64,000 nt of DNA. Source: a candidate division Zixibacteria bacterium SM23_81. GTDB taxonomy: Bacteria; SM23-81. Below, in pieces: positions 21,284-49,018 of the stretch. The stretch is from positions 58,461 through 122,460 of the forward strand of contig LJUY01000004.1 of assembly GCA_001304015.1 (NCBI GenBank), given 5' to 3'. The translations under genes and the position numbers were made by a program. The notes beneath the pieces are model-generated. The model made no database searches. It was given only the letters and a program-made list of their open reading frames with translations, and was not told where the DNA came from. The first letter of the stretch is position 1. Every line of letters starts with the position of its first letter.

Positions 21284-23059
21284 TCATTTGATGAGAAGCA
21301 TCTTAACAGTTTTCTCAAAACCTCCAACTTTCAACTGGCAGAAGTACAACCCACTGCTCACCTCCAAGCCCCTGTTATTCTCACCATTCCAACTGATCTC
21401 ATAATCTCCAGCTCTTTGAACCGCATCCACCAAAGTCCGCACCTCCTGGCCACGAATATTGAAAATCTTCAGGATTACGTGACAATCCACCGGGATCTGA
21501 TACCGGATCTGCGTGCTTGCGTTGAAAGGATTGGGATAGTTCTGGATCAGCATGAAGGCCTGTGGTAAAAAAATTCCAGAAGTTAATGGCTCTATGGATG
21601 TGCCTTCTACATTAAGCTTGGCCACAAAGATGTCCGCGTAGTTACCAGTGATCGAGGTGCTGTAAGCTCCTGGTGTGGTGGGAAAGTCTGAGGACTTGGT
21701 TTCTCCCGTTGCGTAGATATATCCCCAGCCATCTATGAAGATGTCCCAGCCGAAGTCGACGGCATTTCCTCCCAGGAAGGTAGCATACTCAAGATCACTT
21801 CCTGTGGGGTCGAGCTTGGCCACAAAAGCGTCTGAGTAATAGCCGCTATGAGCGGTGCAATAAGCACCGGCGGTAGCGGGAAAGTTCTCCGACCACGTGT
21901 AACCCGTCAAGTAAGCGCTACCAGAGCTGTCTACGGTGATACTGAGACCTTCATCACCAGCGTTCCCGCCCAGATAGGTGCTGTATTCCAATGCGTTCGT
22001 GGCGTGATGAAGTTTCGTCACAAAGGCATCTGTGCTGGCGACGCCGCCATGTTCGGTGTCGTAAGCACCGGCAGTTGTGGGAAAATCGGCTGAGGACGTT
22101 TTTCCTGTAACGAGTGCATCGCCAAAATTGTCTACGGTGATGGAATAACCATAGTCGGCACCAGTTCCGCCTATGAAGGAGGAATGGATAAGGGTGGCGC
22201 CCATTGGATCAAACCTGGCCACAAAAACATCGTGACCTCCATTATGGGTGGTATCATAAGCGCCCGCGGTGGTGGGAAAATCCGAGGATGCGCTGTTTCC
22301 CGTCACATAGGCATATCCGGAGGTGTCCAAAGCGATATCATGGCCATCATCCACATCTGTTCCCCCCAGGAAAGTGGCATACTCCAATTCACTTCCCGAG
22401 GCATTTAGCTTGGCCACAAAAGCATCCCAATTGCCGCCATTGTAAGTGCTATCGAAAGCCCCCCCTGTGGCGGGAAAGTCCTGAGAGTTTGTGTATCCGG
22501 TCACAAAAGCGCTGCCAGAGTCGTCCACAGCGAGCCCCTTTCCCCAGTCTGAGTTGCTCCCCCCGAGGAAGGTGGCATATTCCAGAAGGCTCCCCGAAGG
22601 ATCGAGCTTGATGAGGGTGACGTCCCGAGATCCATTGTAGATGGCGTCGAAAGCACCATTTGTGGTGGGGAAGTCATCAGAGACGGTGACGCCGACCACA
22701 TAGATGTAACCGTAATGGTCGACGAAGATGTCCTTCCCCTCGTCATCGTCGCTTCCCCCCAGCAAAGTGGCGAAGACGAGTGAGTCACCCAAGGGATGGA
22801 GCTTAGCTAGGACAACATCGCGACCGCCGTGTGTCGTATCGATGTCGCCAGATTTAGTGGGAAAGTCGTCAGAGGTCGTGACGCCGGTCACGTAGATATA
22901 GCCGGTGTCGTCTACAAAGATGCCGTAGCCCAGATCATAATCGCTGCCTCCCAGAAAGGTGCTCCAAGCCAAATCGCTCTTGTCGGCCCAGTTATTATTG
23001 CTGAAGAAAATAGAAGAGAGCGCGACGAACAGAAGGCAAATTTTTATAGTCGATTTCAT
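21284..23059 (-). CDS. SBBP (beta-propeller) repeat protein with C-terminal sorting domain
   Basis: Repeated 'YATFLGGxxxDxGxxIxVDxxGxxYVTGxTxSxDFPTTxGAYDTxxxGGxDxFVAKLxxxG' units; C-term 'IQNYPNPFNASTQIRYQIP...GLYFCQLKVGGFEKTVKMLLIK'. Confidence 0.9.
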   Translation of the reverse strand: MKSTIKICLLFVALSSIFFSNNNWADKSDLAWSTFLGGSDYDLGYGIFVDDTGYIYVTGVTTSDDFPTKSGDIDTTHGGRDVVLAKLHPLGDSLVFATLLGGSDDDEGKDIFVDHYGYIYVVGVTVSDDFPTTNGAFDAIYNGSRDVTLIKLDPSGSLLEYATFLGGSNSDWGKGLAVDDSGSAFVTGYTNSQDFPATGGAFDSTYNGGNWDAFVAKLNASGSELEYATFLGGTDVDDGHDIALDTSGYAYVTGNSASSDFPTTAGAYDTTHNGGHDVFVARFDPMGATLIHSSFIGGTGADYGYSITVDNFGDALVTGKTSSADFPTTAGAYDTEHGGVASTDAFVTKLHHATNALEYSTYLGGNAGDEGLSITVDSSGSAYLTGYTWSENFPATAGAYCTAHSGYYSDAFVAKLDPTGSDLEYATFLGGNAVDFGWDIFIDGWGYIYATGETKSSDFPTTPGAYSTSITGNYADIFVAKLNVEGTSIEPLTSGIFLPQAFMLIQNYPNPFNASTQIRYQIPVDCHVILKIFNIRGQEVRTLVDAVQRAGDYEISWNGENNRGLEVSSGLYFCQLKVGGFEKTVKMLLIK

Positions 23060-23430: not shown

Positions 23431-25344
23431 ATGAATGATGAAGACAAATCCAAGGTGCAGTTGATCAGAGAACTCGCCGAGCTGCGGCAGCACGTTTTGG
23501 AATTCAAAGCACGTGAAAGGAAACTCCTTCAGGAGGCAAAAGAGGCCCTCAAGGAGAGCGAGGAAAAATACCGCATGGCCTTTGAATGGACGGGCACGGC
23601 CATGATGGTGGTTGACGAGGACACCATGATCTCCATGGCAAACCATAAGGCGGAGGAGGTAACGGGATATCCCGCGGAGGAGGTCAATGAGCGGCGCAGG
23701 TGGCCCGAGTTCATCGTGGATGAAGATCTTCCCAGGATGTTGGAATACCACAAGCAGAGAAGAATAGATCCGGAGTCCGTCCCCAATGAGTACGAGTTCC
23801 GCATGCGCCACAAGAGCGGCGAGATAAGGGACATCTTCATCAACGTCAGCATGATACCGGGCACCAAGAAGAGCCTCATATCCCTCATCGACATCACTCG
23901 GCGGAAAAAGATGGAGAGAGCGCTCAGGGAAAGCGAAGAGCGTTTCCGAAACATCTTCTCTCAGTCTCCCATCGGCAATGCCTTGTTCGGATCAGACGGC
24001 AAGTTAACAGACATGAACGGTGCTTTTCGAAAGCTGTTCGGTATATCCGATGACCTCTCGGAGAAAACGCCCTATGACCTTTTTACGAATTTCAACATCC
24101 CCGATGAGGTGATACGTATCTTAAAAAGAGGGAAGGGCGCCGATCACGAATCTTATTTCGACTTTGGAGCACAGGGCAAAGGGAAAGTCGTTTTTGAGAA
24201 AATGGGGCTCCGTTACCTTCGTTGGCACCTCACCCCCATGGGAATGGAAAGCGAAAAGGACCCGGTGTTTCTGGCTCAGGTCCAGGATATCACCGAGCGC
24301 AAGAAAGCTGAAGAGGCCGAGTTGAAGAAAGTGCGGGCGGCAGCGAACGAGGCCAAGCGGTTGGCCGCCGGGCTGAAAAAGGAGATCATTCGACTCACCA
24401 GTTACCACGATATCATCAGTCGTCATCCGGAGATGAAGAAGATCTTCAACATGCTGCCCGAGGTCGCTCAGACCACAGCTACTGTTCTGATCACTGGAGA
24501 AAGCGGCACCGGCAAGGAGCTCATAGCCAGATCACTTCACGAGTTGGGACCCAGAAAAAAGAGGCCCTTTATAACCATAAACTGCAGTGCGTTGCCGGAT
24601 ACCCTGTTGGAATCGGAGCTGTTCGGCTATAAAGCGGGTGCCTTTACCGACGCCAAAAAGGATAAGCCTGGGAAATTCGCCCTGGCCGATGGGGGGACGG
24701 TTTTCCTCGATGAGATCGGCGATCTCTCTCCATCCGTTCAGGTCAAGCTGCTCCGGGTGCTTCAGGAGAAAGCCTTCGAGCCCCTGGGAGATACGCAATC
24801 CATCACCGTGGATGTGCGCGTCCTCGCGGCCACCAACAGAGATCTTTCCGCTTTGATTAAAGAGGGCAAATTCCGGAAAGATCTCTATTATCGGATCAAA
24901 GTGCTGAGCATTGACCTTCCGCCCCTCCGGGAACGGCGCAGTGACATACCCATTCTGTGCGATGATTTCATAGAGACATTCAACACCCGGTATCAAAAAA
25001 AGATCACCGGGGTCTCCGACGAGGTTCTGGACACCTTGCTGTCTTACGATTTCCCCGGAAACATCCGGGAGCTGGAGAATATCATCGAACACGCCTTCAT
25101 CTTCTGCAAAGGTGATCTCATCGAGATGGAGCACCTCCCTCTAGAATTGGGGGGAGAGGCCAAAGAGCGGGACGTCGTGAAGGCCATGTCGGGCGTGAAA
25201 AATCTCAAGGAGCTGGAGAAGCTTTATCTTCAGAACGTCCTGGCCGAAACGGGCGGGAATAAGACATTGGCCGCTAAGAGACTGAGCATTCACAAGGCCA
25301 CTCTTTTTCGAAAATTGAAACAGCTGGGGATAACTAAAAAATAG
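23431..25344 (+). CDS. PAS-PAS-AAA+ sigma54-dependent transcriptional regulator (enhancer-binding protein)
   Basis: Two PAS-like regions, 'GESGTGKELIARSLHELG', 'ESELFGYKAGAFTDAKKDKPGKF', 'DGGTVFLDEIGDLS', C-terminal Fis-type HTH 'GNKTLAAKRLSIHKATLFRKLKQLGI'. Confidence 0.93.
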   Translation: MNDEDKSKVQLIRELAELRQHVLEFKARERKLLQEAKEALKESEEKYRMAFEWTGTAMMVVDEDTMISMANHKAEEVTGYPAEEVNERRRWPEFIVDEDLPRMLEYHKQRRIDPESVPNEYEFRMRHKSGEIRDIFINVSMIPGTKKSLISLIDITRRKKMERALRESEERFRNIFSQSPIGNALFGSDGKLTDMNGAFRKLFGISDDLSEKTPYDLFTNFNIPDEVIRILKRGKGADHESYFDFGAQGKGKVVFEKMGLRYLRWHLTPMGMESEKDPVFLAQVQDITERKKAEEAELKKVRAAANEAKRLAAGLKKEIIRLTSYHDIISRHPEMKKIFNMLPEVAQTTATVLITGESGTGKELIARSLHELGPRKKRPFITINCSALPDTLLESELFGYKAGAFTDAKKDKPGKFALADGGTVFLDEIGDLSPSVQVKLLRVLQEKAFEPLGDTQSITVDVRVLAATNRDLSALIKEGKFRKDLYYRIKVLSIDLPPLRERRSDIPILCDDFIETFNTRYQKKITGVSDEVLDTLLSYDFPGNIRELENIIEHAFIFCKGDLIEMEHLPLELGGEAKERDVVKAMSGVKNLKELEKLYLQNVLAETGGNKTLAAKRLSIHKATLFRKLKQLGITKK

Positions 25345-25381
25345 CAGTTGTCCTCAATCATCAGAGGTATCATCACCTCGA

Positions 25382-25412
25382 CCCCCTTCCGATCCTGGAG
25401 GGGGGTTTTTTC
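25382..25412 (+). terminator. Rho-independent terminator downstream of the sigma54 regulator
   Basis: CCCCCTTCCGATCCTGGAGGGGG hairpin followed by TTTTTT. Confidence 0.7.
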
Positions 25413-25504: not shown

Positions 25505-25550
25505 GTCGCATAGATGCAACCGATACTTCGAGTAGTCGCGTATTTGCGAC
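25505..25550 (+). promoter_or_regulatory. Paired 16-bp palindromic sites (candidate enhancer sites for a sigma54 activator), set A
   Basis: GTCGCATAGATGCAAC (25505-25520) and GTCGCGTATTTGCGAC (25535-25550), start-to-start spacing 30 bp. Confidence 0.7.
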
Positions 25551-25627
25551 CATCCTTGAATTGCATAAATATCTCCGAATCGTTTTAATCCTATAAACAG
25601 CAACTGTTTAATTAGCTGGCCAACACT

Positions 25628-25642
25628 TGGCACGCCATTTGT
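25628..25642 (+). promoter_or_regulatory. sigma54 -24/-12 promoter A
   Basis: TGGCACGCCATTTGT against consensus TGGCACG-N4-TTGC; GG-to-GN spacing of 12. Confidence 0.8.
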
Positions 25643-25692
25643 ATGGTCAACTGAATAGTAACGTCCCATAGACCGCGTTGAAGGAGTTCACG

Positions 25693-26556
25693 ATGTTCCG
25701 CACATTGGCTCTATCAGGTTTCCTGATGCTCTTTGCCGTCACGACCGCATCGGCTCAAGAGCAGGTTTTTTGCTCTGCTCAAAACAGTGATAATCTTCTG
25801 GAAACCTGCTGGGATGAGTTGATACAAGCGGCCAATGGACTCGAATCAGTTCATGTGAATGTCTCGCGTGACGTTGCCAGATCTTACAATTTCAATCCAC
25901 AAACTTCTCCAAAACTTCCCTCACATCCTCATACAAAAACGAGTGAGAGACTATCCCGGCAGGGTAATCCCTTTTTGGAACGGCGGTCTTTTTGGCTCAC
26001 GGAGTTCGGTTACAGCCTCAGGTTTAGAGTTCCCACCAAGGTTCAACAGGTCAAACCTCACAGTTATGGCTATGAATGGATAGGCGCAGAGAGTTATACG
26101 CCAGCAAAACGCAACTTCACCTGGGAAGTGGGGCACATGCGCACCAAGGGCCGTGGTTCCGCCCTGGGGGTGGCTCTGTTTTTCGGCACCGACGCCAACG
26201 ATGTACTGCGATTCGGTGTTAAACCCAGGTACCGCCGCAGGTTGGATAGGAAAACTAGCCTCGATATCGCCCCGGGGATACTGATCAGGGGAAGCGATCC
26301 TCTGGAATCGATCTTTCCAGGATTTACTGCGCACGTGGGGTTGAATTTCGAGGACACTTTTATCCTTTACGGTCAGATGGAAGCGAACCGTACGGAGAAA
26401 TACGGCACCGATGTGGCGTGGTACGGAGGGATAAAATTGGGCTCCTCTCCAGGCCTGATCGCCGGTGCGGTTTACGGCCTCATTAAGGTTATCGGAACAA
26501 TGGACTTCGGGGCGGATACGGGTGGTGGGGGCTCTTTTGGTGGATGCGGTGGGTGA
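25693..26556 (+). CDS. Exported hypothetical protein, probable outer-membrane beta-barrel
   Basis: ATG 25693 with RBS AAGGAG; signal peptide 'MFRTLALSGFLMLFAVTTASAQ'; amphipathic strands. Confidence 0.65.
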   Translation: MFRTLALSGFLMLFAVTTASAQEQVFCSAQNSDNLLETCWDELIQAANGLESVHVNVSRDVARSYNFNPQTSPKLPSHPHTKTSERLSRQGNPFLERRSFWLTEFGYSLRFRVPTKVQQVKPHSYGYEWIGAESYTPAKRNFTWEVGHMRTKGRGSALGVALFFGTDANDVLRFGVKPRYRRRLDRKTSLDIAPGILIRGSDPLESIFPGFTAHVGLNFEDTFILYGQMEANRTEKYGTDVAWYGGIKLGSSPGLIAGAVYGLIKVIGTMDFGADTGGGGSFGGCGG

Positions 26557-26619
26557 TAGGTATTTCTGCAGTCCCCGGTTCGGGAGACGCTGATTTCCGT
26601 TCTGAAAAAGGAGAATACC

Positions 26620-27159
26620 ATGTTGGCCAAAATCTTCAAGATACTGCCTACCGTTGTCATCGCCCTGATGGTGATCCCGGAGGCCAATTGTCAGGCACAG
26701 CCATACAAAGTCTGTTTGGAGAAAACGCTTCTCAAAATCGAGCCCGGTGAGAAAATTAAGATCCTCGATCACGACGGAAATTCAATCAGCGGGCGTCTTG
26801 TAGCAATAAATTTAGACAAGTCCATCGTCACCATGAGCCAAACCGTAACTAGGCATGGAAGGTTCGCATGTCAATCTTTAACTGTCAACGGAAGGGATAT
26901 CTCGGAGATCAAATTCCTAAAAACAGGGAAATTCGATGCCAAGTATATAGGAATTGGATTCGGTGCTGGTGGGTTTGTAGGCATGATTGTGGGCGGTCAC
27001 ATTGGGCAATCGAAAAGTAGCGGGGCTATTGCAGATTTTTCAGGTCTTGAAGGTATGGTATGGGGCGCTGGCATCGGTGCGGGAGTTGGTCTATTGCTGG
27101 GAACTATTTTACCGCCTTTAATTCCTGCGAAATACGAGACCATCAAATGCAAATCGTGA
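26620..27159 (+). CDS. Exported hypothetical protein with glycine-zipper-like segments
   Basis: N-terminal hydrophobic signal; 'GIGFGAGGFVGMIVGGHIG' and 'GAGIGAGVGLLLG'. Confidence 0.6.
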   Translation: MLAKIFKILPTVVIALMVIPEANCQAQPYKVCLEKTLLKIEPGEKIKILDHDGNSISGRLVAINLDKSIVTMSQTVTRHGRFACQSLTVNGRDISEIKFLKTGKFDAKYIGIGFGAGGFVGMIVGGHIGQSKSSGAIADFSGLEGMVWGAGIGAGVGLLLGTILPPLIPAKYETIKCKS

Positions 27160-27204
27160 AACGCTTATTCTGAGGTGAACTTCTCTTTAAGAAAGGAGGC
27201 AGCC

Positions 27205-28605
27205 ATGTTTTCCAAATTCTTTGTGATGATGCTCCTGGTCAGTGCCGCCCTGATGTTTGTCTCCCCAGAATTGGCTCAGGCCCAAGAGGAAGGCCGCATC
27301 ATCGTCATCAGCCCAAAGGTGGGCGAGGTGATCGACCGACAGGAGCGGGATGCTTACCAACTGTTTCAGAGTTTTCCGTCTTTTCAGTCGGCGAATTTCT
27401 GGGAGTTGCCCGATGGCAGCTGCGCCATTCACATCGCCTATCTCGATGGTAAGGCGTCCAGGACTCAGGTTTGGAGAATATCCCGCCACGAGCTGGTGGA
27501 GAATTACCAAAAGGTCATCGATCGACCGGGGTCGAGCAGCGCAACAGGTCGCTGGGATAACCTGGCGAACAATTACCCGCAGGTCATGGATCGGCCCAGA
27601 TCGAAACATAGTATGAGTCGTCGGGAGAGGAACGGCCCCATCGTCGATATTGAAACCACCAATGGCCAAAGGCTGAGAGGAGCTCTTCACGGGTTCAGCG
27701 GCGATTCCATCGCCCTGTCGGGTGCTATCGAAACGTACGGAACCCTGCTTCAGCAAGCATCCCCCGGCAATCCCACGATGAACCTCAACGATGTGTCTCG
27801 TCTCTCTCTGCCCAGGAAATCCTCCTGTCTCAAAGGCATGAAATGGGGACTGATCCCTTTGGGGCTTGGACTTGTTGTTGGAGCGGCAAGCAGCGATGAA
27901 AGCAGCTGGTTATGCCCCAGCCCGCGAAGTATCGTCATGGGATTGGGGGTCTTCTCAGGTGTTATCGTTGCATCCATCGGCGGATCCGTGGGAGCGCTGA
28001 AGGGAGTGGATGTAGATATCCCTTGGGTGGGTAAGTCCGAGATCGAAAAATTGGCCATCCTTTCAAAATTGAGGACGGGAAGGTACCGCTCTCGCAACTA
28101 CTTTAAAGTATCTCCATGGGGGGGAGTAATTTCTCCACCTCAAGGTAAAACCGCTGCGGCTATTGGGGGCAGGCTGCGATATTATTTTACCTCACGATCG
28201 GGGCTAGAACTGGCCTATGGAAGAACCGGCTGGTTTTCCAGAGAGCTTCCATACTACGATCCTTACTGGTCGCGCACAGAGCGCTCCATGGTGAGCTATT
28301 TCTCCGGTGGTTTTTTCATATACCCTATCAGGAAACGGTCAGTGAAGCCATTTGTAGCATGGGGTTGGGGAAGAACCTCGACCGAAACCAAATCGACAGA
28401 AAGTTGGCAATACGGACTTGATGAATATAGCGAATGGGAATGTAATTCCACTGAGAGGTATGTTTCCATAAACCTCTCTGGGGGGGTCGAGATTCCTCTG
28501 ACGAACTATCTCAGTCTGGAGGGGAGACTCGAGGATATCTGGGCGCTGGGGGAAGGACATCATACTGCTTTTCAACTGGCAATGACCCTGGGTCCAAATC
28601 CCTAA
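27205..28605 (+). CDS. Exported hypothetical protein of the 'VISxKVGExIDRxER' family with C-terminal beta-barrel-like region
   Basis: 'IIVISPKVGEVIDRQERDAYQLFQSFPSFQSANFWELPDGS'; RBS GAAAGGAGG before ATG 27205; paralogue at 31178. Confidence 0.65.
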   Translation: MFSKFFVMMLLVSAALMFVSPELAQAQEEGRIIVISPKVGEVIDRQERDAYQLFQSFPSFQSANFWELPDGSCAIHIAYLDGKASRTQVWRISRHELVENYQKVIDRPGSSSATGRWDNLANNYPQVMDRPRSKHSMSRRERNGPIVDIETTNGQRLRGALHGFSGDSIALSGAIETYGTLLQQASPGNPTMNLNDVSRLSLPRKSSCLKGMKWGLIPLGLGLVVGAASSDESSWLCPSPRSIVMGLGVFSGVIVASIGGSVGALKGVDVDIPWVGKSEIEKLAILSKLRTGRYRSRNYFKVSPWGGVISPPQGKTAAAIGGRLRYYFTSRSGLELAYGRTGWFSRELPYYDPYWSRTERSMVSYFSGGFFIYPIRKRSVKPFVAWGWGRTSTETKSTESWQYGLDEYSEWECNSTERYVSINLSGGVEIPLTNYLSLEGRLEDIWALGEGHHTAFQLAMTLGPNP

Positions 28606-28981
28606 CCTCTTCAGGTGAGAGAGGATGCTCTAAATGAGCAGCTCTCAGAATTGTTCTCGATTTTGTTCAATGGTCTTGCGCTACATAGTCAAACCTGGCT
28701 TTTGCCATGGGATTGGTTCCGGTAGGCAGATCCGACCGCGAGATGAAGATTGAAAATTAACGGGAGCTCAACAAGCTCTGCTGGCGATAAAAAGCGCAGA
28801 AAAGGATTGTTTACCATAATTACTTTTCCTATATTGGATTTGTCAAAATAGAGTAATATAAGATTTCTGCTGGTAAAAGCATTATGGACAGTGTTGGTAT
28901 CTTGCTAGCGAAGGCAGTTCTGTTTGAGCTGAGTCTCACCTAGCTTTGACAAATGAAGAACCTTCATCAAGGAGGGAAGTC

Positions 28982-29518
28982 TTGATAAAAGAGATATCTT
29001 GCACGGGGCTGGTGAGTTTAGCAATCTGCTGTCTCCTGTGTGCAGATTGTACAGTACACGAAAGCTCTCAGCCACACCTTTACACTGATCCACAGTTCGG
29101 GTTTCGCCTGGCCAGTCCAGATTCCGGATGGATCCTGACCGACGAGACCGGGATTCCAGAGGTGCTGCTGACTATAAAGTCCAAAAAGATGATCGAGGAT
29201 TTTATCCCCAATGTGACCGTGGCCATTGAACCTTTGTCGATGATGATGACTGCGGAAGAATATGGACAAAGGAACCTGCGGTCTCTGAAATCGCAGGGGT
29301 ATGAGATCATATCCAGTGAGAAGAGGGTAATCCATCACAACCTGTTTTGCGACCTTCACTGCTTACATCAGGATACCCAGCCCATCTTGCGATTTCGACA
29401 TCTGTGTTTGGTAAAAAATAGAGTCGGTTTTATCATCACGTGCACTGCCCCGGAGAACTGTTACCATATGTATGAAAACGATTTTAAGCTCATCGTGAAC
29501 AGCTTTCGTTTTATGTGA
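28982..29518 (+). CDS. Putative exported lipoprotein of unknown function
   Basis: TTG start after AGGAGG; hydrophobic N-term with several cysteines ('LAICCLLCADC'), then 'YTDPQFGFRLASPDSGW'. Confidence 0.55.
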   Translation: MIKEISCTGLVSLAICCLLCADCTVHESSQPHLYTDPQFGFRLASPDSGWILTDETGIPEVLLTIKSKKMIEDFIPNVTVAIEPLSMMMTAEEYGQRNLRSLKSQGYEIISSEKRVIHHNLFCDLHCLHQDTQPILRFRHLCLVKNRVGFIITCTAPENCYHMYENDFKLIVNSFRFM

Positions 29519-29534
29519 AGTAAGCCTCAGATCA

Positions 29535-31142
29535 ATGGGAAGGGAAAACGCCATGGTCGAAAGGTTGAAGCGCTTCGTAGAAGATCTTGAAAACAGCCGG
29601 ATTTCCTTCTGGGCCTACGTGGTGACGATCATCTGCGTTATCTTTCTGAGGAACTTCCTGGAGACCTTCTCCGACGTGGACAACTTCTGGACTCCGGTGT
29701 CCCCGCTGGCCTACTTCGTCCATTACCCCATGTTCTACCTCTGTCTCTTGCTGGCGCTGATCGCCATCTTTCACTGGCTCACAAAAGAGAAAATAACCAA
29801 AATTACCAGAATAACGCTGTGCTTCTTCCCGATCATCCTCCTCGCCCCCATATTGGACCTTCTCGTCTCTGGAGGACAGGGTTATAACATCTCCTACATG
29901 TTCGAGGATTCATCAGCCCTTATTAATAGATTCGTCACCTTCTCCTGGGGCTATCTGGGCCGTGGGATCACCCCTGGAATTCAAATTGAGCTGATGGTTG
30001 TCTTTGTGCTGGTCGCCTGCTACCTGTTCTTAAAAACCGGGAAGATCATCTTGGCGATCATCGGCGTCATCGCCTCCTACATCGCGGGCTTCGTTCTGGG
30101 GTCGCTGCCATCACTGATCACCATCCTCTGGAACCTGAAAGGTTCAGCCACAGTGGGAAGTGAGATTTTTAGCGCCGATGTGGTGCTATATCATTTCTAT
30201 TCGTTCAATCACAAAATGACGCTAGTTCTCTTTCCCATCCTGGTGGTTGAATTGGGGCTCTGGTATCGTCTTTACAACAGGGAGAAATTTCGTGCTCTGC
30301 TGAAAAACCTCCGCGGTCTGCGCGTTTTCCATTATCTGTGCATGCTGTCAATGGGCATGCTCATCGGATACGGGCAAAGACCGCCGGAGACCTTTTTCGA
30401 GTCACCTTTCCCCATCCTCATCCTCATTGTTTCGGCCTGTTCTGTCGTCCTGGCATGGCTGTGGGCTGTGGGGGTCAATGATCTTCATGATGAGGATACC
30501 GACAGGATCACAAATCATTCCCGACCTCTGGTTTCCGGGGTTATCGATGTCGAGGAATATCGCTCTTTGAACCTCGTCTTCTTGGTGTTGTCGCTCATCG
30601 CCGCCGTTCTGGTCCGACACCCATTCTTGGTGACCATTTTGGTGACAGCAGGCCTTTCCTATGTCTATTCGGCTCCACCTTTCCGGTTGAAAAGGGTTCC
30701 CCTTCTGTCCACCTTTATCCTCGCGCTGTGCTCAGCACTTGTCTGTCTGGGCGGTTTCGTGCTTTTCTCCGCAGACTACAGCTTCGTTGGTTTTCCACCT
30801 CGGATTCTCTCTGCCATGCTGGTGGCCTTCACCCTCGGCTTAACCGTCATCGACATCAAAGACCTGAAGGGAGATCAAGCCACAGGAACTGTCACCCTGC
30901 CCATCTTATTTGGTGAGAAGAAGGGAAAGATGATCACCGGAATATTGGTGCTACTGGCATACCTCAGCGTCCCTGTGATTTTAAAGATCTTGGTCTTAAT
31001 ACCCCTCGCTCTGGTTTTTGGAATCCCAACCTATCTTTTGATAAATGGGAAGCAAATGCGGGAGACACCCATTTTCTTACTGTATTTTCTCTTTCTGGGC
31101 GCGACCATATTTTTTATCTACCTCCGAATTCAGGGGGGATGA
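29535..31142 (+). CDS. UbiA-family prenyltransferase-like membrane protein
   Basis: 'GVNDLHDEDTDRITNHSRPLVSGVIDVEEY' and 'GLTVIDIKDLKGDQATGTVTLPILFG' match UbiA aspartate-rich motifs. Confidence 0.8.
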   Translation: MGRENAMVERLKRFVEDLENSRISFWAYVVTIICVIFLRNFLETFSDVDNFWTPVSPLAYFVHYPMFYLCLLLALIAIFHWLTKEKITKITRITLCFFPIILLAPILDLLVSGGQGYNISYMFEDSSALINRFVTFSWGYLGRGITPGIQIELMVVFVLVACYLFLKTGKIILAIIGVIASYIAGFVLGSLPSLITILWNLKGSATVGSEIFSADVVLYHFYSFNHKMTLVLFPILVVELGLWYRLYNREKFRALLKNLRGLRVFHYLCMLSMGMLIGYGQRPPETFFESPFPILILIVSACSVVLAWLWAVGVNDLHDEDTDRITNHSRPLVSGVIDVEEYRSLNLVFLVLSLIAAVLVRHPFLVTILVTAGLSYVYSAPPFRLKRVPLLSTFILALCSALVCLGGFVLFSADYSFVGFPPRILSAMLVAFTLGLTVIDIKDLKGDQATGTVTLPILFGEKKGKMITGILVLLAYLSVPVILKILVLIPLALVFGIPTYLLINGKQMRETPIFLLYFLFLGATIFFIYLRIQGG

Positions 31143-31177
31143 GCTCCTCTTTTTAAGCTAATAGGAGGTGGGATGTC

Positions 31178-32383
31178 ATGCGGTCCTTGAAGGTGGCCAT
31201 TGTGTTCTTGCTGATAGAGAGCCTGTCCGTCTCTGCAGTATTTGAGGCTCTGGCTCAGCGGGAACGGCCTCAGGAAACAGGTGCCGGAAAGGTTATCGTC
31301 ATCAGCGAAAAAGTGGGTGAGACCATCGATCGGGAGGAGCGGAGTCGCTATCGACTCTTCCCAGGATCTTTAAACTTCCTGTCCGCGATTATCCTCCAAC
31401 TGCCCGACAGCAGCTATGCGGCGGAGATCACCGAGGAGAAAGAGGGTATTAAACAAGTACGAACGTTGCCTATCGACCAAGAGACTCTGGAGAAGCTTCG
31501 CGAGCACATTAACTATTATGAAAAACGTCTTCCCATTGATAGTCCATTTCCCGCAATTGTTCCTGCAAAGCCCTCTTCCCCTTCCGAGACGCGTCACCTT
31601 TCTCCGCTAGAGCACATGACGATAAAAGGCAAGGTAAAGGAAGCCAAGAAACAGGCTAAAATAATGATGAAGGAGAAATGGACCAAAGAGCGCTGGCGCG
31701 AGGAGAGTCGTCACGATCGGGCGACGAGCTATCGTAGTGCTGGTGGGGTGCTTGGTTTTGCCTTGGGAGCTACGGCGGGTATGCTCATTGGCAAGGGGCT
31801 TCAGGGAAGAAAAGTGGAGAGAACAGTATACCACCCAGGCGGTTGGGATGATCCGTCCTGGACGGAAGAATTTTACTCTTATAAACACAGACATGCGCCC
31901 ATTTGGGGAGCGGCTATTGGCGGCATCGGTGGGGCCGTTACAGGCTATTACTTCGGCAAGAAAGCCGACAAGGAATACTACATCCTTATCCCTCGTAACA
32001 TCCGCATGATGGAAACCAAACCATCAAGATCGGGGTGCCTATTTGGATTTGGCCTCCTGGGGCCAATTATGGGTGGAGTTGCAGGGTATTCACTGTATAT
32101 GCCCATGTCAGGTGATGCGAGTGAAGATTTTGGGTGGCCTCAATTCGCCTGTGGTTTCCTCGCAGGTGGATTCCTCGGCTCGGCCGTTATATCAAGTTAC
32201 AACAGGAGAGCGAAGTACAAACGGCTTTGGGAAGAATCTCTCCTGGAAGAAAAGCTCGAATCGTCCCTTGACATCCAAATCATGCCTCTGGATCCGACAA
32301 CATTCGCCCTCCGGCCCAGGAGACTGCCTAGCGGAGAAATCATCTACGAATACCATGTGGATATGCTGCGGGTACGTTTTTAA
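31178..32383 (+). CDS. Exported hypothetical protein, paralogue of 27205 ('VISxKVGExIDRxER' family), glycine-zipper
   Basis: 'VIVISEKVGETIDREERSRYRLFPGSLNFLSAIILQLPDSS'; 'GFALGATAGMLIGKG', 'GAAIGGIGGAVTGYYFG'. Confidence 0.65.
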   Translation: MRSLKVAIVFLLIESLSVSAVFEALAQRERPQETGAGKVIVISEKVGETIDREERSRYRLFPGSLNFLSAIILQLPDSSYAAEITEEKEGIKQVRTLPIDQETLEKLREHINYYEKRLPIDSPFPAIVPAKPSSPSETRHLSPLEHMTIKGKVKEAKKQAKIMMKEKWTKERWREESRHDRATSYRSAGGVLGFALGATAGMLIGKGLQGRKVERTVYHPGGWDDPSWTEEFYSYKHRHAPIWGAAIGGIGGAVTGYYFGKKADKEYYILIPRNIRMMETKPSRSGCLFGFGLLGPIMGGVAGYSLYMPMSGDASEDFGWPQFACGFLAGGFLGSAVISSYNRRAKYKRLWEESLLEEKLESSLDIQIMPLDPTTFALRPRRLPSGEIIYEYHVDMLRVRF

Positions 32384-37945: not shown

Positions 37946-37991
37946 GTAGCGTCGTTGCGACCATAACCCACAATAGTCGTATTATTGCAAC
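37946..37991 (+). promoter_or_regulatory. Paired 16-bp palindromic sites (candidate enhancer sites), set B
   Basis: GTAGCGTCGTTGCGAC (37946-37961) and GTCGTATTATTGCAAC (37976-37991), spacing 30 bp as in set A. Confidence 0.65.
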
Positions 37992-38069
37992 TATTAAAAA
38001 GAGTAGTGCCGGAGACACAGATCTCGCAACAAATTACAATTTAATTGATTAAATGAAACACTCATTCTC

Positions 38070-38084
38070 TGGCACAGTGCTTGC
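38070..38084 (+). promoter_or_regulatory. sigma54 -24/-12 promoter B
   Basis: TGGCACAGTGCTTGC: near-perfect -24/-12 with GG-to-GC spacing of 12. Confidence 0.8.
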
Positions 38085-38235
38085 CTGTTTTTTAAATCAG
38101 AATGCAGAAGAAGAAGAGATCCTGGACCTCAGTTACTATGGGGAGTGCTCCCTAATGCTGTCAAAAAGCTGGAAAGGTGAAGACGCCCCCATGATCAAAC
38201 CAGGAATATGGTAAAATCCCATTAAGGAGGTAACG

Positions 38236-38458
38236 ATGACTGTATGTGAGTATGAGTGTATGAGCTGTGGACACCGATTCGAGAAGTTCAAGTGGATGTC
38301 CGAAGAGCCGGTCAAGCGCTGTCCTTGCTGCGGGCATGAAGGTCCGGAAATAGCTGAAGGCTGGTTCTGGTCTCATCTTCAAAGTCCCGGGAGTTCGCGT
38401 GACCGACTATCGAAGAGAGAGCTACAAGGAAGCCACCTGGTTCCATAAGGGAAGATAG
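38236..38458 (+). pseudogene. FmdB-family zinc-ribbon gene, apparently frameshifted
   Basis: Frame of 38236: '[39 protein letters not shown]'. A second frame continues '[32 protein letters not shown]', the typical FmdB C-terminal region. Shift near 38350-38360. Confidence 0.75.
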
Positions 38459-38682
38459 AGGATCTGTCGTGAAGAGTCCGATGTCTTATTGGGGGTAGGT
38501 GTGGTTGATAGGAGATGGGATACGTCATGCGTGATACGTGATACTTAATACGTAATGCGTAAAGATCCAATTCCAGAATCGAAATGTCGGTCTCACGAAT
38601 TACGCATTACGCCGATGGCCATAAAAAAGAGCCCTCCCGACAATCTCAGGAAGGCCCTTCTCACAGCTATGAGCTTCTGATA

Positions 38683-46446: not shown

Positions 46447-47718
46447 GTGGCTGAGGAAATGTCCACAATGAGTGCGAATTTCTGGAAAATGGCACCGAAA
46501 CTCTTATTGGTGCTTCTATCAGGGCTATTCTTTCGGTGTTCGGACAATCCGGTTTCGGCTCCAAGGAATTCTTTTTCGTTAACCACTGCAGAAAAGGTAC
46601 TTATCGAATCGGATAACAAGTTTGGACTCAAGCTGTTCCAGAAAATCGCCCAGGCTGAGGGGCATAAAAACGTCTTCATCTCCCCCTTGAGCATTGCCAT
46701 GTCTTTAGGGATGGCGTACAACGGTGCCGAGGGAGGCACAGCAGTGGCGATGCAGGAGGTTCTGGAACTCTCAGGCTTGAGCATCGAAGAGGTCAATATA
46801 TCCTACAAGCGTTTGATGAACGCCTTGACAGAACTCGATCCCTCGGTTCAATTTCAAGTCGCCAACTCTCTCTGGTACCGGGGGGACTTCCAGCAGCCGA
46901 GAACAGGTTTCCTCAACGTTTGTGTTGAGTATTTCAACGCCCTGGTGACCGGATTGAATTTCAACGATCCAAACGCGGCGTCCATTATTAACACATGGGT
47001 TGAGGAGAGCACCGATGGCAGGATCGAGGAAATCGTTGACAACCCCATTAACCCCCGCTATGTGATGGTTTTGATCAATGCCATCTATTTCAATGGCGAA
47101 TGGACATATAAGTTTGACGAAGATCTGACATTTGATGATTGGTTTTACCTGCCAGACGGCTCTCAAACGGCCTGCTCCATGATGCAACAGCGCGGATCGT
47201 TCGAGTACTACTTTCATGAGGACTTCAAAGTCTTAGACTTGCCTTACGGCGACGGTGCCTTCAGAATGACCATCTTCCTTCCGGCTCGCACAGTCGGTCT
47301 CGATTCGTTGATGGCACAATTTGGACTCGAAAACTTCGACCAAGAGCTGATGCGCTATTGGCTAAGCAGTTTTTCGCGCGATTCGTTGGATATCTTCATT
47401 CCCAAGTTTACTCTTGAATACGAGTCGGGATTGAAGGACATATTGGCGACATTGGGAATGGGTGTCGCCTTCACAGAGATGGCTGACTTCACCAAGATGT
47501 ATGCCGATGGCGGGGTGTGGATTGATCAGGTGAAACACAAGGCATTTGTGGAGGTAAACGAAGAGGGCACCGAGGCTGCTGCTGCCACCTCCACCATCGT
47601 AACCAGCGGCATGGACGGTGTCTTTTGGGCTGACCATCCCTTCCTGTTTATGATCCGCGAAAACCACTCCCAGACGATCCTGTTCATGGGAAAGGTCGTG
47701 GATCCAACTGGTGGGTAA
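46447..47718 (+). CDS. Serpin 1 (exported, putative lipoprotein)
   Basis: Serpin fold motifs 'NVFISPLSIAMSLGMAYNGAEGGTAVAM', 'INAIYFNGEWTYKFD', hinge 'NEEGTEAAAATSTIVTSG', 'DHPFLFMIRENHSQTILFMGKVVDP'. Confidence 0.93.
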   Translation: MAEEMSTMSANFWKMAPKLLLVLLSGLFFRCSDNPVSAPRNSFSLTTAEKVLIESDNKFGLKLFQKIAQAEGHKNVFISPLSIAMSLGMAYNGAEGGTAVAMQEVLELSGLSIEEVNISYKRLMNALTELDPSVQFQVANSLWYRGDFQQPRTGFLNVCVEYFNALVTGLNFNDPNAASIINTWVEESTDGRIEEIVDNPINPRYVMVLINAIYFNGEWTYKFDEDLTFDDWFYLPDGSQTACSMMQQRGSFEYYFHEDFKVLDLPYGDGAFRMTIFLPARTVGLDSLMAQFGLENFDQELMRYWLSSFSRDSLDIFIPKFTLEYESGLKDILATLGMGVAFTEMADFTKMYADGGVWIDQVKHKAFVEVNEEGTEAAAATSTIVTSGMDGVFWADHPFLFMIRENHSQTILFMGKVVDPTGG

Positions 47719-47743
47719 AGATTGCCTTCAGGAGGTGATCAAG

Positions 47744-49018
47744 ATGTTCGCCGAGATTTCAAATTCAGGGTGGCGGGGCACTCCTAGAAAGGGGCTGGGA
47801 TTTGTTTTAATGTTTCTGATCGGCCTTCTTTTCTTGCAGTGCTCAGAGAATCCTACGACTGCCCCAACTCGGAGCTTAGATTTGACTGCAGCAGAAAAGG
47901 AGCTCGTCGAATCGGACAACAGTTTTGGGCTCAGGCTGTTCAGAGAGATCAACGAGGCCCAGGGGGACTCAAACATCTTCATCTCTCCCCTCAGCGTGGC
48001 CATGGCCCTAGGAATGACCTATAACGGCGCCGACGGGAGCACAAAAGAGGCCATGCAGCAGACCTTGGAGCTCTCGGGCCTCACTCTGGAAGAGATCAAT
48101 GAATCCTATCGGAATTTGATCGAGCTGTTAACTCAACTAGACTCTAAAGTCCAATTCGATATCGCCAACTCCATCTGGTATAAGTTAAGTATCCCTGAGC
48201 CGGAAGCAGATTTCCTCCAGCGCTGCCAGCAATACTTCGATGCCTTGGTGACCGGCTTAGATTTCAGCGCTCCCGATGCTGCGTCGACCATCAACGCGTG
48301 GGTCGAGGAAAGCACAAATGGAAAGATCGAGGAAATCGTTGACGACCCCATCGATCCCCTCATCTGCATGTTCCTGATCAACGCCATCTATTTCAAAGGC
48401 AGCTGGGTCTACCAGTTCGACGAGAGCCAGACGCAAGATACGCTGTTCTACCTGCCGGATGGAACGACGGCGACTTGCAAGATGATGTCCCAAAAGGCGA
48501 TCCATGGATTTCTGTTTAGCGACGACTTTCAGGCTGTTGATCTGCCCTATGGCGACGGAGCATACAGCATGACTCTGTTCCTTCCCTGGGAGGACGGGGA
48601 TATCAACGCTCTCATCGCCCAAATGGAGCCTGAAAACCTGAACAATTGGTTGAGCCAGTTTTCCAGCGATTCGGTGAACGTGTTCATCCCGAGATTTACG
48701 CTGGAATATGATCGAGAGCTGAAGGCTGATTTGACTGCTTTAGGTATGGGCATCGCCTTCGATCCTGACGAGGCTAATTTTCGAAATATGTATAGCTCCA
48801 TACCACAAGTGTGGATCGACAAGGTGAAACACAAGACTTTCGTGCAAGTGAACGAAGAGGGCACTGAAGCTGCCGCAGTGACGGATGTTGAGATGGGATA
48901 TTCGTCTGTTACGAATCCTGCGTTTCGGGCCGATCGACCGTTTGTTTTTATGATTCGCGAGAATGAGTCGGGGACTATCATGTTCATCGGGAAGATTGTG
49001 GACCCAACTGGTGGATGA
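47744..49018 (+). CDS. Serpin 2 (exported, putative lipoprotein)
   Basis: RBS GGAGGTGATCAAG before ATG 47744; hinge 'NEEGTEAAAVTDVEMGYSSVTNPAFRADRPFVFMIRENESGTIMFIGKIVDP'. Confidence 0.93.
   Translation: MFAEISNSGWRGTPRKGLGFVLMFLIGLLFLQCSENPTTAPTRSLDLTAAEKELVESDNSFGLRLFREINEAQGDSNIFISPLSVAMALGMTYNGADGSTKEAMQQTLELSGLTLEEINESYRNLIELLTQLDSKVQFDIANSIWYKLSIPEPEADFLQRCQQYFDALVTGLDFSAPDAASTINAWVEESTNGKIEEIVDDPIDPLICMFLINAIYFKGSWVYQFDESQTQDTLFYLPDGTTATCKMMSQKAIHGFLFSDDFQAVDLPYGDGAYSMTLFLPWEDGDINALIAQMEPENLNNWLSQFSSDSVNVFIPRFTLEYDRELKADLTALGMGIAFDPDEANFRNMYSSIPQVWIDKVKHKTFVQVNEEGTEAAAVTDVEMGYSSVTNPAFRADRPFVFMIRENESGTIMFIGKIVDPTGG

Follow-up and report, generated by a model that had tools for sequence, protein, structure and literature searches.

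A predicted paired-dyad enhancer and sigma54 promoter beside the gene of its putative activator, with a second copy about 12 kb away

Does a pair of short dyads standing before a -24/-12 promoter, in the 64-kb stretch of DNA analysed here (the window), form the binding site of the sigma54 activator encoded just upstream, and are the genes that follow its target? The original prediction proposed exactly this, with the dyads as the activator's site and the promoter as its target, and we find the proposal supported by the recurrence of the arrangement, by an association between recognition helix and site, and by modules of the same kind in foreign genomes. The locus and its first module (25505-25643) comprise the following features.

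23431 to 25344, + strand: sigma54 activator (enhancer-binding protein) of 637 aa, identified by Pfam and alignment
25380 to 25407, + strand: intrinsic terminator-like hairpin 3' of the activator gene, a 12-pair stem followed by a T run (consensus match only)
25505 to 25520, + strand: putative enhancer dyad 1a, GTCGCATAGATGCAAC, from a pattern search of the window
25535 to 25550, + strand: putative enhancer dyad 1b, GTCGCGTATTTGCGAC, starting 30 bp after the start of dyad 1a
25551 to 25627, + strand: AT-rich spacer (65% AT) from dyad 1b to promoter 1
25628 to 25643, + strand: predicted -24/-12 promoter 1, TGGCACGCCATTTGTA, with a non-consensus T at -12
25693 to 32383, + strand: predicted target operon 1, six genes, operon limits presumed

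The activator gene stops at 25344 and the next cluster opens with a gene at 25693; all of module 1 lies in this interval, and it had been correctly placed just downstream of the former and just upstream of the latter, with the right coordinates and sequences for two 16-bp sites 30 bp apart. The sites had been described as palindromes; their dyad form holds, but the symmetry is imperfect, at 12 of 16 positions in each. The core -24/-12 match, TGGCACGCCATTTGT at 25628-25642, is likewise present, 77 bp rather than the claimed 78 bp after dyad 1b, and departs from TGGCAC-N5-TTGC once, by C to T at -12, so that it reads TTGT and not TTGC, a departure that could weaken the promoter. The terminator-like hairpin behind the activator gene suggests that the downstream cluster needs a promoter of its own. 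The spacer is plausibly a bending or looping segment; its best match to the IHF consensus (8/9) is weak, and IHF may have a role there, as it does in the orp operons (PMC3897727). It should be noted that dyad 1a begins about 160 bp after the activator stop, a distance that is near zero in most relatives, which counts against the explanation that we favour.

A search of the window that allowed one mismatch revealed a second pair with the same geometry, at 37946 and 37976, about 12 kb from module 1. This module (37946-38448) comprises the following.

37946 to 37961, + strand: putative enhancer dyad 2a, GTAGCGTCGTTGCGAC, 1 mismatch
37976 to 37991, + strand: putative enhancer dyad 2b, GTCGTATTATTGCAAC, 1 mismatch, 30 bp from dyad 2a
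38070 to 38085, + strand: predicted -24/-12 promoter 2, TGGCACAGTGCTTGCC, pattern match
38236 to 38448, + strand: predicted target 2, a 70-aa zinc-ribbon (FmdB-like) protein, PF09723 match

Promoter 2 contains the TGGCAC-N5-TTGC element (TGGCACAGTGCTTGC), and the start of the second dyad precedes the -24 element by 93 bp in module 1 and by 94 bp in module 2. The zinc-ribbon gene has a strong ribosome site, AAGGAGGT, and its product matches PF09723 with an E value of 2.3e-7 and 31.2 bits, slightly below the cut-off of 34.4. The original prediction recognized module 1 but overlooked the second promoter, as well as a link to the DVU2106/orp system discussed below. Imperfect TACGTAATGCG / CGCATTACG-type repeats occupy 38510-38615, between the zinc-ribbon gene and a convergent beta-propeller gene.

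The window activator contains two PAS regions, an AAA+ domain with the GAFTDA loop and a Fis-type HTH (IHKATLFRKLKQLGI). Its Pfam matches (PF00158, 3.9e-70; PF02954, 1.3e-9; PAS domains), together with a Walker A motif (GESGTGKE) and GAFTDA loop that are intact in the alignment, identify it as an AAA+ sigma54 activator; it has a profile score of 667 bits, its closest solved structures include ZraR (1ojl) and NtrC1 (1ny5), and the genome encodes RpoN (PF04552 at C46, E 2.0e-63). In a tree of 125 activators it falls inside a 59-row set (100% SH-aLRT) and a 40-row set (97% SH-aLRT), both mostly of activators carrying the paired-dyad module; DVU2106 itself is absent from this tree. Its branch is long (0.66), and no close orthologue of the protein or of the GTYGC pair was found in the few genomes of the phylum, the nearest of which are without the pair; therefore its site cannot be footprinted between orthologues. 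These points, like the TTGT at promoter 1, also weigh against the favoured explanation. Most relatives examined have a single PAS with a Cys-rich motif. This motif was not found in the alignment of the window activator, where the Cys columns of the relatives are replaced. The recognition helix is IHKATLFRK, that of the clade being roughly IHKxTLxRK. A PF00158 search of the genome returned 11 strong activator matches, and among the genome's activators with the C-terminus read, the helix IHxxTLxRK occurs in two proteins, that of the window and a paralogue on contig C87 (G000:C87:39057-40427, L049).

The C87 paralogue belongs to the same activator clade, of which it is the conventional member in this genome, and has a Cys-rich PAS and the helix IHPSTLWRKMKR. 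As the only other activator read with the same HTH type, and 55% identical to the window activator over AAA+ and HTH, it might itself be the main protein bound at the GTYGC pairs, with the window activator acting elsewhere. We consider this unlikely, given the sites that accompany it: its gene is followed by the dyads ATTGC-N6-GCAAC / ATTGC-N6-GCAAT, TGGCATACTCCTTGCC and a Nitro_FeMo-Co gene, and a second ATTGC pair (L289, G000:C62:3-48) occurs with TGGCATGCTCCTTGCC and a Nitro_FeMo-Co-like gene. At both loci the dyads are 30-31 bp apart, with a -24/-12 site and then a target gene behind them, and the ATTGC-N6-GCAAY pairs, which differ from GTYGC in their outer base, precede TGGCAT-N5-TTGCC; the C87 paralogue probably has its regulon here. 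Moreover, its orthologue in another genome (G001) and an activator with an IHQ helix (L047) have A/T-outer sites, whereas activators with IHK tend to have G-outer sites, and both GTYGC pairs lie less than 13 kb from the window activator.

Assignment of the GTYGC pairs to the window activator can also be weighed against activators from other genomes. We sampled 114 activator genes, chosen through protein similarity alone and irrespective of the site, and left the window out; the helix class was defined as [HD][KR]xT[LF]xR[KR] and the site as a perfect GTYGC-N6-GCRAC dyad in the 500-bp flanks. Such dyads accompany 11 of the 39 activators of the helix class and none of the 75 others (Fisher p = 2.6e-6), while a reversed-pattern control gave no match in the class of 39 and one in the other 75. 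Examples that came up through protein similarity rather than through the site have the same layout of activator, dyads and promoter.

We also scanned the GTDB genome collection for a dyad pair with TGGCA, the -12 element not being required. The scan returned 66 stretches, and GC stands at -13/-12 in 34 of them (p = 3e-17 if a background of 10% is assumed). Some in this set are GC-rich chance matches, and about 30 loci were judged real modules on spacing, dyad form and promoter together. Their dyads are 28-33 bp apart, with a second gap, to the -24 element, of mostly 71-78 bp, and their hosts include Syntrophobacterales, Smithella, Desulfobulbaceae, Chitinispirillaceae, Hydrogenedentes, Treponema, Clostridium and Holophagae. 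Where the locus is sufficiently long, an activator with a GIHKSTLYRKIK-like (I-H/D-K) helix mostly ends directly before the dyads, and in most such loci the gene directly after the promoter is a Nitro_FeMo-Co, NifU, DUF5320 or multihaem cytochrome gene. The window activator shares the GAFTDA loop with these module-carrying relatives, and both window modules have their form: a YGC-N6-GCR core, a spacing within 28-33 bp (30 here) and a position before -24/-12. Right after the genes of many activators of the same clade no pair is detectable; the sites of these are elsewhere or degenerate. No published consensus of the GTYGC-N6-GCRAC pair form was found in the literature searched.

A simple dyad motif and a non-consensus -12 element in promoter 1 would suit operators of an unrelated dimeric regulator next to a coincidental -24/-12 match. 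This explanation is quite improbable, since the pair and the -24/-12 element occur together twice in the window at the same offset, the roughly 30 modules elsewhere have GC at -13/-12 far above chance, and the sites are associated with a single activator clade.

How rare the arrangement is was estimated by pattern searches of the 3.07-Mb assembly and by simulating 98 Mb with the second-order composition of the window, a module being counted where dyads 28-33 bp apart, with at most 3 mismatches, had a -24/-12 site 60-90 bp downstream. In the assembly, 30-bp pairs at no more than 3 mismatches are limited to the two in the window and one GC-rich match with 3 mismatches (C28), near which no good -24/-12 site was found. 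The genome-wide scan called for by the original prediction thus returns the 30-bp pair together with -24/-12 as the two window modules and none elsewhere. No GTYGC pair was found upstream of the other TGGCACN5TTGYW sites of the genome, and the other perfect 16-mers (L001-L007) have neither a partner dyad nor a good promoter nearby. Chance assembly of degenerate motifs has a negligible probability: it would fit the single motifs, which show no enrichment in the window (9 one-mismatch 16-mers against 6 expected; 11 two-mismatch -24/-12 matches against 14 expected), but it is contradicted already by the joint statistics (about 0.01 simulated modules per Mb, or about 0.0007 expected per 64 kb, against two seen) and by recurrence of the module in other phyla. 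The improbable feature is the joint arrangement, not the single motifs. Two other sigma54 promoters of the genome (L011, G000:C22:9263; L020, C92:2466) have different repeated motifs upstream, AGACCTCTCCCAC-like repeats and GTAC dyads, which are probably enhancers of other activators.

Three independent lines, namely the recurrence of the arrangement in the genome, the helix-site association of 11/39 against 0/75 and the presence of the module in about 30 foreign genomes, lead us to predict that the dyads are the site of the window activator and the promoter its target. We consider it highly probable that they form a cooperative enhancer of the sigma54 activator encoded upstream, that the same activator acts on 37946-38085, and that it belongs, as a divergent member, to the DVU2106 (orp) kind. 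The analysis demonstrates the architecture in the sequence, its recurrence, and a link between protein and site that extends over other genomes; binding, looping, activation, signal and operon limits are inferred from these, and the proposed course of events is as follows. Two activator dimers would bind the dyads cooperatively, on the same helix face and about three turns apart, and, once bound, would assemble the AAA+ hexamer. Looping of the AT-rich spacer of about 77 bp would bring the activator to sigma54-RNA polymerase at -24/-12, which it would remodel, with transcription starting near 25654. Activation would respond to a signal sensed through PAS, and the same activator would also serve the second copy at 37946-38085. 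The analysis thereby supplies an activator of an uncultured lineage with predictions for its site, two promoters and two target transcripts.

The outer dyad base may be connected with the helix. In 12 modules whose dyads directly follow the activator, IHP/IHQ helices occur with outer A in 4/4, and IHK/IDK helices occur with perfect GTYGC dyads in 6/8, against 0/4 for P/Q. These counts are suggestive only of a rule by which the outermost base would track the residue at recognition-helix position 3 (K mostly with G; P or Q with A). A reciprocal scan of 384 genomes for ATTGC pairs returned one site, in this same genome; this supports two site classes here and has no bearing on the helix rule elsewhere. 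We advance only tentatively, as a possibility that we hold with some reserve, the broader view that one clade in many phyla follows one grammar, in which two YGC-N6-GCR dyads some three turns apart are followed after about 75 bp by -24/-12, that the outer base tracks helix position 3, and that the duplicated activators of this genome are insulated from each other through this change, one having had its sensor and targets swapped. A sequence rule leading from helix type to dyad at fixed spacing would allow enhancers to be assigned to activators of the orp type in many phyla, and two paralogues in one genome, with GTYGC and ATTGC sites, offer a compact natural test of the insulation of sigma54 activators after duplication.

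Predicted target operon 1 consists of the genes 25693-26556, 26620-27159, 27205-28605, 28946-29518, 29535-31142 (UbiA) and 31178-32383 (Gly-zipper), and is largely lineage-specific; the product of 27205, for example, has weak partial matches only, in 2 of 58 related genomes. The original prediction had called it an envelope-protein cluster. This description is borne out in part: most products have signal-like stretches at the N terminus and belong to no Pfam family, one is a UbiA prenyltransferase and one a Gly-zipper protein, and we regard an envelope role as plausible. AlphaFold models made without alignment for target proteins (mean pLDDT 35 and 37) were too poor to use. The products of 27205-28605 and 31178-32383 have an N-terminal stretch in common, with 46% identity over 70 aa, which points to a duplicated domain in the predicted operon. 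The Nitro_FeMo-Co/Mrp-type domain was not found in the targets at 25693-32383 or 38236; the neighbours of the C87 paralogue have it. Elsewhere in the window, the product of 21284-23059 has beta-propeller (SBBP) repeats, several products within 17845-40725 end in Por_Secre_tail/FlgD_ig-like sorting domains, and 46447-47718 and 47711-49018 are, from reading the translations, two tandem similar serpin-like genes.

Activators of the NtrC/ZraR/NtrC1 type act on sigma54 promoters from paired upstream dimer sites, by looping to -24/-12. The window activator resembles them in its AAA+ and Fis-type HTH domains, in paired sites about three helical turns apart and in the predicted looping; however, their receiver-domain members are phosphorylated response regulators, whereas the window protein has PAS instead. 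With the C87 paralogue it shares the clade and the order of paired dyads, -24/-12 site and target gene, the dyads being 30-31 bp apart in the paralogue's modules, yet the paralogue has a Cys-rich PAS, ATTGC-N6-GCAAY dyads and Nitro_FeMo-Co targets, and the window activator has none of these.

The counterpart that has been studied best, DVU2106 of Desulfovibrio vulgaris, activates the sigma54-dependent orp operons from palindromic sites, with IHF between enhancer and promoter (PMC3897727), and has the GAFTDA loop (PMC4641369); orp targets include Di-Nase/Mrp proteins (PMC6345978). Both systems have a one-component sigma54 activator with a GAFTDA loop, palindromes before -24/-12 and an activator gene adjoining its targets, and the relatives with the window-type helix mostly face Nitro_FeMo-Co genes, much as Di-Nase domain genes form part of the orp operons. 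The orp palindromes are described at -131 (orp1) and -88 (orp2) of divergent promoters (PMC3897727, PMC4641369, PMC6345978), whereas a tight pair precedes one promoter here, and the window activator, without a Cys-rich PAS, faces lineage-specific rather than Nitro_FeMo-Co genes. We draw the kinship with DVU2106, of which the window activator would be a divergent member, from gene context and the loop, not from alignment. Overall, the window activator has retained its DNA-binding and AAA+ domains along with the layout of gene, site and promoter, but with another sensor and other targets: the mechanism is known, and the pairing of sensor and targets is new.
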